Source of the DNA: Aliamphritea spongicola
GTDB lineage: Bacteria; Pseudomonadota; Gammaproteobacteria; Pseudomonadales; Balneatricaceae
Direction: 5' to 3'
DNA length: 64,000 bases
Assembly: GCA_024347235.1 (NCBI GenBank)
Contig: AP025283.1
Coordinates: 4,836,001-4,900,000, forward strand
Shown here: one piece after another, positions 12,463-17,730 of the stretch
How the letters are laid out: each line of letters opens with the position of its first letter
Position numbering within the stretch: the stretch's first letter is position 1
The notes under the pieces: model-generated
What the model saw: only the letters and a program-made list of their open reading frames with translations
What the model was told of the DNA's origin: nothing
Database searches by the model: none
Made by a program: the position numbers and the translations under genes

Positions 12463-13853
12463 TTACTGTGCGGTGTCTTTAACAAACTGATCCAGCACTT
12501 TCTTGGTACCGGCAAATTTACGCTGAATTTCCTGATACTCATCTTCAGGATTAGAGTCATAGACGTTACCGCCACAGGTTTGCACATAGGCTTCTTCGCC
12601 GTTGGCAAACACCGTCCGGATCGGAATCGCAAAAGCACAGTCACCGTTAAAGGAGAAGTGCCCCACTGCACCGCCATAAGGGCCACGGCCGTCTGATTCC
12701 AGATCATCAATGATCTTCATGGCTTCAATCTTCGGCGCGCCGGTTAACGTACCTGCCGGGAAGTTACTCGCCAGTGCCGAGAACATGTCCTGATCCTGGG
12801 CGATAATGCCAACAATCTCACTGGAAATGTGCTGTACATGGCTGAAGCGCTTAATGTCCATCAGGCTGCGGACTTTTACCGTACCGAACTGCGCCACGCG
12901 GCCAATATCATTCCGGTGCAGGTCGACAATCATATTGTGTTCGGCAATTTCCTTCGGATCATTCAGCAGCTTGCGGGCCAGCTCACGGTCCTCGGCTTCG
13001 GTTGCGCCACGCTGCGCAGTACCGGCCAGAGGGAAGGTTTCCATCTCGCCCTGACGCAAGCGGAACAACAGCTCAGGGCTGGCACCGATCAGCTTCTGCT
13101 CGCCGAATTTAAGGTAATACATTTGCGGAGACGGATTCACTTCCCGCAGCTGCTCATAAATATTGATGGTGTCGCCCTTCAGGGTGAAGCGCTTCTTGAA
13201 GCCCACCTCCGTCTGGAAGATTTTGCCGTCAATAATATCCTGCTTAACCTTCATGACCGCCGCCGCATGCTCTTCACGGCTCATGGTCTCCTCGCCCACC
13301 AGAATTTCCAGCTCACCGTTGCCCGGGTACTCCGCATCAATCAGCTGCTGCACCAGATCCATACGGTTATCGTCGTAGTAGAAGTAGAAAACCTCACCGG
13401 TCATTTTGTCGAGGATCAGGCCGTCCTTATACAAGCCAAACTTGAACGCATTGAACATCTCACTGCTTTGCAGGTTCAGCGTCGGCTCAAAGTAGTTCAT
13501 GCTGTCATAACCCAGATAACCGGTCAGACCACCGGCATACTTACGGGAAATCACATCCTGAGGAATCAGATCCCGCAGCAGGTAATAGGGGTTATCACTC
13601 GGATATTCCTCGGTGCTGCCATCACGTTCCTGAATAAACAGGCTCTTACCTTCCGCCCAGATAATTTTTCCGGATCAAAACCGATAATTGAGTGGCGGGA
13701 GATATAACTTTCTTCCCCCAGCGACTCGAGCATGAAACAAATATCAAACTGCTTATCGAGCTTTTTAAACAGTTCGAAGAAATCAAAGCCGGCCCCCATC
13801 GGGACATACTGTGGTTTTCTGGGTAAATTGATCGGATCAGGCTTACGGGACAT
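12463..13853 (-). CDS. trpE: Anthranilate synthase component I TrpE (one apparent frameshift)
   Basis: The repaired protein is about 463 residues and converts chorismate to anthranilate with TrpG. It has the chorismate-binding core with PLAGTAQRGAT, HNMIVDLHRND, FPAGTLTGAPKIEA and TCGGNVYDS. It is somewhat shorter than the enterobacterial enzyme and begins MSRKPDPINLPRKPQY. The break lies in an A/T run near 13667-13671 and one added base joins EKLSG to the real continuation EKIIWAEG. Feedback inhibition by tryptophan is expected for the family but cannot be read from sequence. Confidence 0.9.
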
Positions 13854-13920: not shown

Positions 13921-14168
13921 TTACTGGCTGTCTTTTAACGCTCTGGAGCCGCGGGTAACGGTGGCAATCCCCACCCCAGGGTTTCTGCAATCTGTCGTTG
14001 CGGCACACCCTGCTCCAGCATCTTAAAAATCTGCAGACGCTTGGTCACCTCAACAAACTCATTGGGTGTCAGCAAATCACGTAACGCCGACTCCATTGCA
14101 TCCGGGCTATCAATGTCTAACAAATGACGTGTTAATGCGGCGATATATTCTTTTTCAGTGCTCATCAT
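13921..14168 (-). CDS. trpR: Trp operon repressor TrpR (one apparent frameshift)
   Basis: The repaired protein is about 82 residues, slightly short for TrpR. It has the helix-turn-helix region LTPNEFVEVTKRLQIF, then QRQIAETLGVGIATVTRGS after adding one base to a G/C run near 13976-13979. The protein binds operators when loaded with tryptophan. It is the first gene of an operon with trpE and trpG and has strong TrpR-type sites at its own promoter, so it should repress itself and the two biosynthetic genes together. The start may be either of two adjacent ATG codons (14168 or 14165). Confidence 0.85.
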
Positions 14169-14180
14169 AAACAACTTAGC

Positions 14181-14423: not shown

Positions 14424-14438
14424 TAGGAATTATTCCTA
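14424..14438. promoter_or_regulatory. 15-bp palindrome upstream of the GGA-rich RNA promoter
   Basis: TAGGAAT-T-ATTCCTA is a perfect palindrome centred about 47 bases before the predicted RNA start, a usual place for an activator. Csr/Rsm RNAs are activated by GacA/UvrY-type response regulators. This dyad does not match the Pseudomonas GacA box (TGTAAG-N6-CTTACA), so the binding protein is unknown. Confidence 0.45.
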
Positions 14439-14442
14439 TATC

Positions 14443-14471
14443 TTCTGACACGCAATTCTCAATAATAGAAT
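14443..14471 (+). promoter_or_regulatory. Predicted sigma-70 promoter of the GGA-rich RNA
   Basis: TAGAAT at 14466-14471 serves as the -10, with TTCTGA (17-base spacer) or CTGACA (15-base spacer) as a weak -35. Transcription would start near 14477-14479, exactly where the first GGA hairpin begins. A weak -35 fits dependence on an activator. Confidence 0.5.
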
Positions 14472-14476
14472 AGCAA

Positions 14477-15123
14477 GAGCAGGACGCTCCCGGTTATCAG
14501 GAAGATAACCCGCTGAAAGGAAGCTCAGAGACCTGTCAGGTGCAGGGATAGCGCCACTTAATGACAGACTCATCCGGAGTAAAGGACATTCCGGAAATAT
14601 CTGCCAGAGCAGAAACAAAGGCTAAGGAAGCCGACAACTGCAGGAAGCAGAAATCAAACAAATACTCTTCTTTGAATGAAAGTTGTTTGAATGAGCAGGA
14701 AGCTCAAAACCCGAAACGGTCAGGTTATCAGGATGATAACTTGCTACAGGGAAGTGAAAAGGCCTGTCAGGTGTATGGAGAGCACCGTTCAATGACAGAC
14801 TCATCCAGAGTAAAGGATATTCCGGAAATATCTGCCAGCGCAGAACCAAAGGCTAAGGAAGCCGACACTTGCAGGGAGCAGACAAACACTCTTCTTTAAG
14901 TGAAAGTCGTTTAAATGAAGGCTGTTTGAATGAGCAGGAAGCTCAAAACCCGAAACAGTCAGGTTATCAGGAAGATACCTGCTGTAGGGAAACACAGTGA
15001 TCTTGTCAGGTGCACGGATAGCGCTATTCAATGACTGATCCGGCCGGAGTAAAGGACACTCCGGTAGTCTGCTCAGGCAGAAAAGAGGCCAGGGAGGCCA
15101 TCGGTTGCAGGAAGCAACCTTAA
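14477..15123 (+). repeat. Three imperfect tandem repeats (about 215, 239 and 193 nt) inside the GGA-rich RNA
   Basis: Copies start at 14477, 14692 and 14931. Each opens with a GAGC-AGGA-GCTC hairpin and then a GGTTATC-AGGA-GATAACC hairpin (14492, 14723, 14962). Next comes the phrase AATGACAGACTCATCC or a variant, then a GGA hairpin with CCGG arms. The block CTAAGGAAGCC and a TGCAGG(A/G)A hairpin follow in the first two copies. Stems are kept while loop bases vary and the copies differ by indels that are not multiples of three. The third copy is the most diverged. Confidence 0.8.
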
Positions 15124-15358
15124 TGAATCAGGGATGCATTCACGGTAAACAGGACGTTTTCCGTTACAACAGGGAGGATCACGCTGCAGGGACAGGCAGC
15201 ACAAGGTCAGCAGGAGCAACGACCGCCCCGAAAGGTTCATGATGAATCACCGGGTTTCAGGGACGCACTTTTAAGCAAAGGGAATAGCACCGGCCCATGG
15301 CCGGAAATCTGTAAGGCAAGTAAAGGAGGCGAAGCCGCACAGACACCATTTCAAGAAA

Positions 15359-15386
15359 GCATTCAGTGACGATTGAGTGCTTTTTT
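15359..15386 (+). terminator. Intrinsic terminator of the GGA-rich RNA
   Basis: GCATTCA pairs with TGAGTGC (7 bp, one G-U) around an 8-base loop and is followed directly by TTTTTTCTTT on the plus strand. It lies 60 bases before the uvrD promoter, so it separates the RNA from uvrD. Confidence 0.8.
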
Positions 15387-15447
15387 CTTTCTGCCCTTCT
15401 TTTATACCCACCGTTCAGATAACACTCGCGCCCGGACATGGGTCTGC

Positions 15448-15507: not shown

Positions 15508-17730
15508 ATGGACGTATCTCACCTGCTTGACTCACTCAACGAAGCGCAGCGCGACGCAGTTTCCGCGCCACTTGGTAACCTGCTGGTACTGGCCGGTGCA
15601 GGCTCAGGCAAAACCCGGGTACTGGTTCACCGGATTGCCTGGCTGATCCAGACAGAAGGCCTGTCACCGTATTCAATTATGGCGGTAACCTTCACCAATA
15701 AAGCCGCCAAAGAAATGCGCGGCCGGATCGAAGAACTGCTGGGGCTGAATCCCAGCGGAATGTGGGTAGGCACCTTCCACGGTCTGGCACACCGTATTTT
15801 GCGGGCACACTGGCGCGATGCGGGCCTGACTGAAAACTTCCAGATCATGGATTCTGATGATCAGTTGCGATTGGTTAAACGGCTCAGCAAAGAAATGAAT
15901 CTGGACGACAGCCGCTGGCCTGCCAAACAGTTTCAGTGGTATATCAACGCCCAGAAAGATGACGGCCTGCGTGCCGCCCATATTGATCCCGGCGGCGATC
16001 CCTATGCACAGATGATGGTCACCATGTACAGCGCCTATGAAGAAGCCTGTGAACGTGGCGGCATGGTGGACTTTGGTGAACTGATCCTGCGGTCACTGGA
16101 ATTACTGCGCGACCGCAACCCTTCCCTGCTGAAACACTATCAGGACCGCTTCCGCTATATTCTCGTAGACGAATTTCAGGATACCAACACCATCCAGTAT
16201 GCCTGGCTGAAACTGCTGTGCAGCGAAATGGACCCGCGCCAACCCCAGCCGGAAAAACTGATGGCGGTAGGCGATGACGACCAGTCCATCTACGGCTGGC
16301 GTGGTGCAAAAATCGAAAACATCCAGCGTTTTAAAGACGACTACAACGATACAACCGTGGTGCGTCTGGAACAAAACTACCGTTCCACCCGGAATATTCT
16401 CAGCGCAGCCAACGCCGTTATCGTCAATAACCAGGGCCGTCTGGGTAAAGAACTATGGACCGAAGGCACCGATGGCGAACCTATTTCCGTTTATGCCGCT
16501 TTTAATGAACAGGATGAGTCCCGCTTCATCGTTGATCAGATCGAAAGCTGGGTACGGGACGGCAACCTGCGCAGTGAATCTGCCATTCTGTACCGTTCCA
16601 ATGCCCAGTCCCGGGTACTTGAGGAAGCCCTGATCCGTGCTGGTATGCCATACCGTATCTACGGCGGCCAGCGCTTCTATGACCGGCTCGAAATCAAAAA
16701 TGCCCTTGCCTACATGCGCCTGCTCAGCAATCGCGAAGACGATACCGCTATGGAACGGGTCATTAACGTGCCCACCCGCGGTATCGGCGGCAAAACCATT
16801 GAAGAAGTCCGCCTGCACGCCCGTACAGAAGGCGTCTCCATGTGGCGGGCTGCCAATGAAGTGGTGGAACTGAATAAACTGTCTGCCCGGGCGGCCAATG
16901 CCCTGCAGGCATTCATTGACCTGATCAACGATCTTGACCAGAACACCCAACATGCTGAGCTGAACGAGCAGACAGAACACGTGGTGCAGTACTCCGGTCT
17001 GATTGAGCATCACCTCAAAGAAAAGGGTGAAAAAGGTCAGGCACGGGTGGAAAACCTTGAAGAACTGGTCAGTGCTGCCCGTCAGTATCTGTCGACCTGG
17101 GAACCGGACAAAGAAGAAAACGTTAACACCACGCCGCTTGCTTCCTTCCTTGATCAGGCTGCACTGGATGCCGGCGACACCCAGGCAGATGAACATCAGG
17201 ACAGCGTCCAGCTAATGACCCTGCACTCTGCCAAGGGTCTGGAATTCCCTCTGGTGTTTTTGGCCGGCATGGAAGAAGGCCTGTTCCCGCATAACATGTC
17301 GATTGAAGAACCCGGACGTCTGGAAGAAGAACGGCGCCTTTGCTATGTCGGTATCACCCGTGCCATGCAACAGCTGTATCTGACCTATGCCGAATCACGC
17401 CGCTTGCATGGCAATGAAACCTTTAACCGGCCATCCCGATTTATCCGCGAGATTCCGGAAGAGCATCTGCAGGAAGTGCGCCTGAATGCCAGCATTCGCC
17501 GCCCGGTAACCGCCCAACGGGCACCTCAGCAGCCATCATATGCTCAGGCACAGGCCGGTCAGGATGTACCGTCTATCGTACTGGGTCAGCGGGTTTCCCA
17601 TCCGATCTTCGGTGACGGCGTCGTCGTTAACTATGAAGGTCAGGGACCGAAAGCCCGGGTGCAGATTAACTTCGACTACGAAGGCACCAAATGGCTCGTT
17701 GTTGGTTACGCCAACCTGCAACCGCTTTAA
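15508..17730 (+). CDS. uvrD: DNA helicase II UvrD
   Basis: A 740-residue superfamily 1 3'-5' helicase acting in nucleotide-excision and mismatch repair. Motifs: Q-motif LNEAQRDAV, Walker A GAGSGKT (residues 30-36), GTFHGLAHRIL, DEFQDTN, DDQSIYGWRGA, QNYRSTRNIL, TLHSAKGLEFPLVFLAGMEE and a C-terminal tudor-like tail ending in VGYANLQPL. The length and tail are those of UvrD rather than Rep. The frame is intact over 2.2 kb although most neighbours are broken. It ends at a strong terminator. Confidence 0.95.
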   Translation: MDVSHLLDSLNEAQRDAVSAPLGNLLVLAGAGSGKTRVLVHRIAWLIQTEGLSPYSIMAVTFTNKAAKEMRGRIEELLGLNPSGMWVGTFHGLAHRILRAHWRDAGLTENFQIMDSDDQLRLVKRLSKEMNLDDSRWPAKQFQWYINAQKDDGLRAAHIDPGGDPYAQMMVTMYSAYEEACERGGMVDFGELILRSLELLRDRNPSLLKHYQDRFRYILVDEFQDTNTIQYAWLKLLCSEMDPRQPQPEKLMAVGDDDQSIYGWRGAKIENIQRFKDDYNDTTVVRLEQNYRSTRNILSAANAVIVNNQGRLGKELWTEGTDGEPISVYAAFNEQDESRFIVDQIESWVRDGNLRSESAILYRSNAQSRVLEEALIRAGMPYRIYGGQRFYDRLEIKNALAYMRLLSNREDDTAMERVINVPTRGIGGKTIEEVRLHARTEGVSMWRAANEVVELNKLSARAANALQAFIDLINDLDQNTQHAELNEQTEHVVQYSGLIEHHLKEKGEKGQARVENLEELVSAARQYLSTWEPDKEENVNTTPLASFLDQAALDAGDTQADEHQDSVQLMTLHSAKGLEFPLVFLAGMEEGLFPHNMSIEEPGRLEEERRLCYVGITRAMQQLYLTYAESRRLHGNETFNRPSRFIREIPEEHLQEVRLNASIRRPVTAQRAPQQPSYAQAQAGQDVPSIVLGQRVSHPIFGDGVVVNYEGQGPKARVQINFDYEGTKWLVVGYANLQPL

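Follow-up and report, generated by a model that had tools for sequence, protein, structure and literature searches.

A GGA-rich region upstream of uvrD very probably encodes a large Csr/Rsm-type RNA

The DNA upstream of uvrD in the window (the whole 64,000-nt stretch of Aliamphritea spongicola contig AP025283.1 that was analysed) very probably encodes an independently transcribed regulatory RNA of the Csr/Rsm type, about 0.91 kb long, that would antagonize CsrA. Judged by its sequence features, a Csr/Rsm-type CsrA sponge is by far the best reading of this RNA. The first-pass annotation of the region had put forward a giant CsrA sponge candidate, a proposal that is supported by conserved GGA motifs and stems, a promoter layout shared with sister genes, a canonical csrA gene, and the lack of a conserved reading frame. 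Transcription as one RNA, binding of CsrA, the activator, and the physiological role are what we infer from these features. The size, the duplication of modules, and the genus-wide promoter signature are new; the sponge principle is already known. The elements of the locus are as follows.

13935-14174, minus strand: TrpR-like gene (PF01371, 42.5 bits)
14424-14440, plus strand: dyad TAGGAATTATTCCTATA, candidate site for an activating response regulator (from conservation)
14461-14466, plus strand: minus-10-like AATAAT, 37 nt from the dyad start (from a spacing of 36 to 38 nt common to 46 GGA-rich units)
14477-14692, plus strand: module 1, 216 nt
14693-14931, plus strand: module 2, 239 nt
14932-15122, plus strand: module 3, 191 nt
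15123-15386, plus strand: non-repeated 3′ domain with more GGA hairpins and a terminator at its end
15357-15386, plus strand: intrinsic terminator with a 9-bp stem that includes one G-U pair, an 8-nt loop, and six T (from sequence, fold, conservation, and a custom terminator script)
15508-17730, plus strand: uvrD

Positions 14477 to 15386 (910 nt) carry 35 GGA motifs on the plus strand and 8 on the minus strand, the same numbers that the first-pass annotation had estimated. A hairpin scan that accepts loops of 3 to 8 nt closed by a stem of at least 4 bp places 22 plus-strand and 4 minus-strand motifs in hairpin loops, more than the at least 16 claimed initially, and finds no simple hairpin around the other 13 plus-strand motifs. 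All three hairpins quoted in that annotation are present. In 1,000 dinucleotide shuffles of the region, the number of hairpin GGAs is 3.3 ± 1.8 (maximum of 10, against 22 observed) and the total number of GGAs is 23.7 ± 3.4 (maximum of 36, against 35 observed). Because the best shuffle matches the raw number of GGAs and none ever matches the loop count, it is the placement of the motifs in loops, not their number, that is beyond chance. Scanning both strands of the window in steps of 30 gives 8 hairpin GGAs as the highest count for any other 910-nt stretch. In the minimum-energy fold, 20 of the 35 GGAs lie in hairpin loops, while 60 shuffles give 1.8 ± 1.2 (maximum of 5). The region thus displays many GGA motifs in hairpin loops above chance, as is characteristic of the class.

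The predicted RNA consists of repeated hairpin modules and a unique 3′ domain

Folding, which had been suggested as a check, gives a predicted structure of −313.7 kcal/mol, far more stable than those of shuffled sequences (z = −12.3, 20 shuffles). The RNA is laid out as three modules of 191 to 239 nt, followed by a 264-nt 3′ domain that ends in the terminator. Each module begins with a GAGC-AGGAN-GCTC hairpin, a GTTATC-AGGAN-GATAAC hairpin, and a weak hairpin; continues with a compound stem that holds an inner GGA-bearing hairpin and with CCGGAGT-AAAGGAC-ATTCCGG; and closes with a GGA-free stem, GGCT-AAGGA-AGCC, and CTGC-AGGAA-GCAG. A/T-rich linkers separate the modules, each of which is self-contained.

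Counterparts of these modules occur in two relatives, G001 and G012 (G000 denotes the genome of the window, relatives are labelled from G001 onward, and loci are labelled L). Across the eight modules of the three genomes, 42 pairs examined in 333 cells form standard pairs in 89.5% of cells, compared with 30 to 48% in slid controls. The shuffle control of the same analysis is not a probability, and related modules share changes. Helix 2 is weak and pairs in just 54.8% of cells. Eight pairs have changed on both sides; in the GGCY hairpin, for example, half of the eight modules have C-G where the remaining half have U-A. The cores of modules 1 and 2 of G000 are 86% identical, which fits a late duplication of these two modules. 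By its sequence, module 3, whose core is 84% identical to that of the last G001 module, is the counterpart of that module.

The conservation of stems bears on the possibility that the region codes, or once coded, for a repetitive protein, as might be suggested by an open frame of 112 aa at positions 14561 to 14899. We give this possibility almost no weight: the region has no Pfam match, its sole NCBIfam match is sub-threshold (13 residues, 16 bits against 28), G001 and G012 have other longest frames, and the modules are offset from one another by single-base gaps. The stems are kept and the frames are not. A coding reading of positions 14477 to 15386 was rejected on the basis of the missing Pfam match, the differing frames, and the conserved stems.

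Promoter and terminator

The dyad TAGGAATTATTCCTATA has no other exact match in the window and is identical in G001 and G012. In all three carriers, 37 nt separate its start from AATAAT, and we expect transcription to begin at about positions 14472 to 14475. A generic sigma-70 scan lists no promoter at hairpin 1. The promoter-like start that the first-pass annotation had placed right before this hairpin is therefore absent from the generic scan but backed by the conserved dyad and AATAAT. The terminator fares similarly. Its stem pairs positions 15357 to 15365 with 15374 to 15382, its T run spans positions 15381 to 15386, and it is conserved in the three genomes and detected by the custom terminator script; the earlier claim of a terminal TTTTTT terminator stands on these grounds, although a generic terminator scan of the window does not list it. 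That the region is a non-coding gene with its own promoter and terminator is thus a conclusion of sequence comparison only, the generic scan being negative.

The GacA box of Pseudomonas Rsm genes, which an excerpt of PMC4950607 gives as TGTAAG-N6-CTTACA, is absent upstream of the RNA, and the 17 matches to it in the window at three mismatches are the number expected by chance. A promoter 27-mer, allowed up to three mismatches, is found in 3 of 37 genomes, and these are the same three carriers. We found no description of the dyad and minus-10 signature in the open-licence literature of PubMed Central.

The promoter layout is shared with shorter GGA-rich sRNA genes of the genus

A degenerate 17-mer, TARGAATTWTTCCTATA, has 60 matches at up to one mismatch, distributed over 17 of 17 genus genomes, while the reversed pattern has 1. 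With a slightly wider pattern, we obtained 66 distinct dyads in sampled loci. Forty-six are followed by DNA that is GGA rich on one strand (a density of 2.5 or more GGA per 100 nt and three times as many as on the other strand, a rule chosen after viewing the data), and 20 are not. One of the 46 GGA-rich units, L083, is doubtful, with no terminator found. In these units, the hexamer at 36 to 38 nt matches GATAAT at a mean of 4.8 of 6 positions, compared with 2.5 when the hexamer is taken elsewhere. The corresponding values for the 20 dyads that are not GGA rich, which served as a control, are 3.2 and 2.7 (offsets searched from 32 to 44 nt, ties favouring 37). The 20 dyads without a downstream GGA-rich RNA include L073, L081, L088, L089, L090, L094, and L099, of which L089, L094, and L099 seem to lie in a single shared context, perhaps that of a further target of the regulator.

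The 46 GGA-rich units comprise the three giants, 12 units of one sequence type (starting with CGTTGGAYC and about 225 to 245 nt long, counted from the promoter), and 31 further units, mostly pairs of about 150 to 200 nt. In G000, one such pair shares a stretch with a ThiC-like gene that has a TPP riboswitch, and its members have 10 and 12 GGAs against 0 and 2 on the opposite strand. In G007 (C11; L091, L143), a HopJ-like and a TauE-like gene flank a tandem array of three members of the 12-unit type. These GGA-rich sRNA genes are almost identical, and every one has a dyad and a terminator of its own. The thiC-linked and HopJ-linked sRNA genes of Amphritea have the same dyad, minus-10 spacing, one-strand GGA bias, and terminator as the giant, but they are about 150 to 290 nt long with 9 to 16 GGAs each, compared with about 910 nt and 35 GGAs. 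They are not named in any of the open-licence PubMed Central papers searched, and R1, a covariance model of the module core, does not match sister genes in the loci tried (L130, L143, L085, and L052).

Because each sister gene would yield one short RNA, and because the three tandem units of G007 have separate promoters and terminators, the transcript of about 0.9 kb could be a precursor, from which RNases that cut the linkers would release module RNAs and a 3′ RNA of the usual size. In that case the RNA would still act as a sponge, though in the cell it would not be of giant size. The self-contained modules and their A/T-rich linkers would suit such processing; however, the dyad search and the custom terminator script found no promoter dyad and no terminator between modules, and we regard a precursor as rather unlikely.

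The candidate giant RNA gene was found in three genomes and precedes uvrD in each

As a DNA query, the stretch as a whole has matches in 3 of 37 genomes (G000, G001, and G012). A search with R1 likewise retrieved 3 of 116 family genomes, the same three, with three, two, and three modules, respectively; this search used stricter filters, and weak matches may be lost. Plasmid and phage collections contain no match to the element. Across the three carriers, 23 of 27 GGA sites are conserved, compared with 254 of 616 for other triplets, in a count that covers the first modules, the last modules, and the 3′ domain but leaves out the middle modules, and in which overlapping triplets are not independent. 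The region of the 3′ domain (positions 15104 to 15400) has a mean column identity of 91%. Conservation of both the GGAs and the stems in G001 and G012 supports the proposal; the narrow distribution of the element, and its absence from G002, speak against it.

In all three carriers, the element lies directly before uvrD. Its opposite flank holds a TrpR-like gene in the window and in G012 and a different frame in G001. The expectation that the element would recur between trpR and uvrD in relatives thus held in part: among the genomes examined with uvrD, it precedes that gene in three only, and one of these does not have the TrpR-like neighbour. The UvrD protein of G002 is 96% identical, yet a different gene lies beside uvrD there, and G002 has neither a promoter match at up to three mismatches nor a module match with R1.

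The position before uvrD would also suit a cis-acting regulator of that gene or a long, structured leader. This explanation is quite improbable, since the terminator and a separate TATAAT-bearing stretch, common to relatives, lie between the element and uvrD. Moreover, six other Amphritea uvrD upstream stretches have no such element (G002, G005, G015, G010, and G016, which show a recognisable common promoter region, and G014/G006, which has another start), and twins of the promoter occur at other genes.

Two neighbouring genes in the window appear altered. trpE (12463-13853, minus strand) is split into frames of 363 and 95 aa, compared with one 468-aa frame in the relative L036, and the end of the TrpR-like protein differs from that of L036. 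Together with a listed completeness of 78% for G000, these differences suggest gene decay or assembly errors, and, given broken neighbouring genes in this assembly, single-base errors are possible in the window sequence.

A DNA search with one member of the 12-unit, HopJ-linked type matched G016 and G007 clearly; the single match in G001 is at chance level (E = 0.09), and G000, G002, and G012 gave none. Because this type was not found by sequence in G000 and G012 and only at chance level in G001, the giant occurs in a branch that lacks that RNA by sequence and may have replaced it. There may be an even chance that, in one Amphritea branch, a single Csr RNA gene before uvrD replaced the HopJ-linked Csr RNA of about 230 nt kept elsewhere in the genus and grew to 0.67 to 0.91 kb by gain and loss of hairpin modules of about 190 to 240 nt. 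The number of modules per transcript would then be an evolvable setting of CsrA buffering, controlled through a regulator-binding dyad for which Gac/Rsm systems offer no described precedent.

Comparison with known Csr/Rsm RNAs

At the gathering score, Rfam reports nothing over the window. In a lax search, RF00018 (CsrB/RsmB) gives 25.7 and 20.3 bits (E = 7.1e−5 and 0.003) against a gathering score of 71 bits; slight as it is, this similarity is an independent point in favour of the sponge reading. The check by Rfam models thus came out negative at the curated score, and, because the RNA fails Rfam's own CsrB test, it is not filed as an Rfam CsrB. Among 37 relatives, 11 have a CsrB match at E ≤ 1, none above the cut-off, and among control genomes 5 of 14 do, one above the cut-off. 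Since control genomes match too, weak CsrB matches alone mean little; those in relatives pointed to the thiC-linked pairs. No match was found at E = 1e−6 in 369 genomes of the class, a search that is little informative, as only 4 candidates per genome were scored. None of the sister or related RNAs is reported at the gathering score in the three loci scanned (L130, L143, and L142).

Against seven loci with other Csr RNAs, including E. coli csrB and csrC, R1 gives weak matches in one only (L142 of G030, best 11.9 bits). This genome of the same order carries, ahead of a tRNA gene (L061/L142), a stretch of roughly 460 nt whose RNA would contain 29 GGAs (18 in simple hairpins); dense and CsrB-like, it is missed by Rfam at its cut-off.

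Like the window RNA, E. coli CsrB (RF00018) and CsrC are intergenic, present many looped GGAs, with CAGGA-type loops, and have their own promoter and terminator. They are shorter (369 nt with 22 GGAs and 246 nt with 14 GGAs, respectively), and, unlike them, the window RNA has three duplicated modules with compound stems. The outsized length claimed in the first-pass annotation therefore agrees with the sequence, and the raw GGA total is about half again that of CsrB, the best-known RNA of this type. Whether the number of sites is twice the usual one, as claimed, varies with how they are counted. The window RNA exceeds CsrB by 22 to 9 in the hairpin scan and by 20 to 9 in minimum-energy hairpin loops, but only by 20 to 17 in GGAs unpaired with a probability above 0.5; because these measures disagree, capacity may be anything from slightly above that of CsrB to about double. 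The longest Csr/Rsm RNA that we know of is RsmB, at about 480 nt, and, to our knowledge, the window RNA is the largest Csr-type candidate. The open-licence literature of PubMed Central yielded no Csr RNA near 0.9 kb, no small-RNA paper on Amphritea, and none on CsrB in Oceanospirillaceae.

Pf1, Pf2, and Pf3 of Pseudoalteromonas fuliginea, a marine gammaproteobacterium with several Csr sRNAs per genome, resemble E. coli CsrB little in sequence, and Pf1 has been shown to act with CsrA (excerpts of PMC11882849 and PMC9927453). They have 25, 21, and 9 GGAs, respectively, according to the available text of PMC11882849, although the earlier paper gives "around 21" for Pf1 (PMC9927453, in part). At 25 GGAs, Pf1 is the richest Csr RNA that we found in the literature (PMC11882849, same excerpt). 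Module duplication, as in the window RNA, is not mentioned for these RNAs in the accessible portions of the two papers. In Pseudomonas, which has RsmX, RsmY, and RsmZ, Csr/Rsm capacity has been raised by gene duplication, but, as far as the available part of PMC7911923 describes it, the duplication of rsmX produced separate short genes (rsmX-2, 110 nt), whereas the window RNA duplicates modules inside one transcript.

CsrA, a candidate regulator, and a proposed mechanism

The genome of the window has one csrA (G000:C1:4357474-4357632), which encodes a canonical CsrA of 61 aa (NF002469, 121.5 bits, cut-off of 73), so that the presumed target occurs in the same genome. The gene adjoins an aspartate-kinase-like gene; the gene order in Alcanivorax is tRNA, csrA, and aspartate kinase (from a part of PMC9788540). 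The best GacA-type regulator in G000 (G000:C1:2529261-2529926) has UvrY/SirA/GacA as its top family, at 193.8 bits against a cut-off of 280. If the regulator and its binding site had both diverged, the sub-cut-off score of this protein and the missing GacA box would be accounted for, though this is a guess.

We propose that a response regulator of the GacA/UvrY kind probably binds the dyad beside the minus-10 box and turns the gene on, and that the RNA would then offer about 20 GGA motifs in hairpin loops to CsrA. CsrB holds about 18 CsrA subunits, and a CsrA dimer can bridge sites 10 to 63 nt apart on one RNA (according to excerpts of PMC7652899). Neighbouring hairpin GGAs of the window RNA are separated by a median of 33 nt (range, 9 to 80), and 19 of 21 distances fall within this bridgeable range. 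Because 19 of the 21 lie between 17 and 55 nt, CsrA dimers could bridge neighbouring loops, by which CsrA would be withdrawn from mRNAs. Tandem duplication of the hairpin module would have produced the present size of the RNA, and capacity could therefore change in steps.

Csr/Rsm RNAs set the level of free CsrA in the cell. An RNA that holds about 20 looped sites, and whose module number is two or three among close relatives, offers a way to study the evolution of sponge capacity and to learn if numerous sites gathered on a single molecule behave differently from numerous small RNAs. The dyad and minus-10 signature, in turn, is a handle for listing Csr sRNAs of the genus that Rfam cut-offs miss.

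In G002, which is also a close relative without the giant RNA, the gene for the best GacA-like regulator lies in two frames of 93 and 126 aa (L139, G002:C1:2769500-2774500); the split could be a coincidence or an assembly error. A second CsrA-family match, which in G005 falls below the cut-off, occurs in 6 of the 17 genus genomes (G001, G003, G005, G008, G011, and G012).
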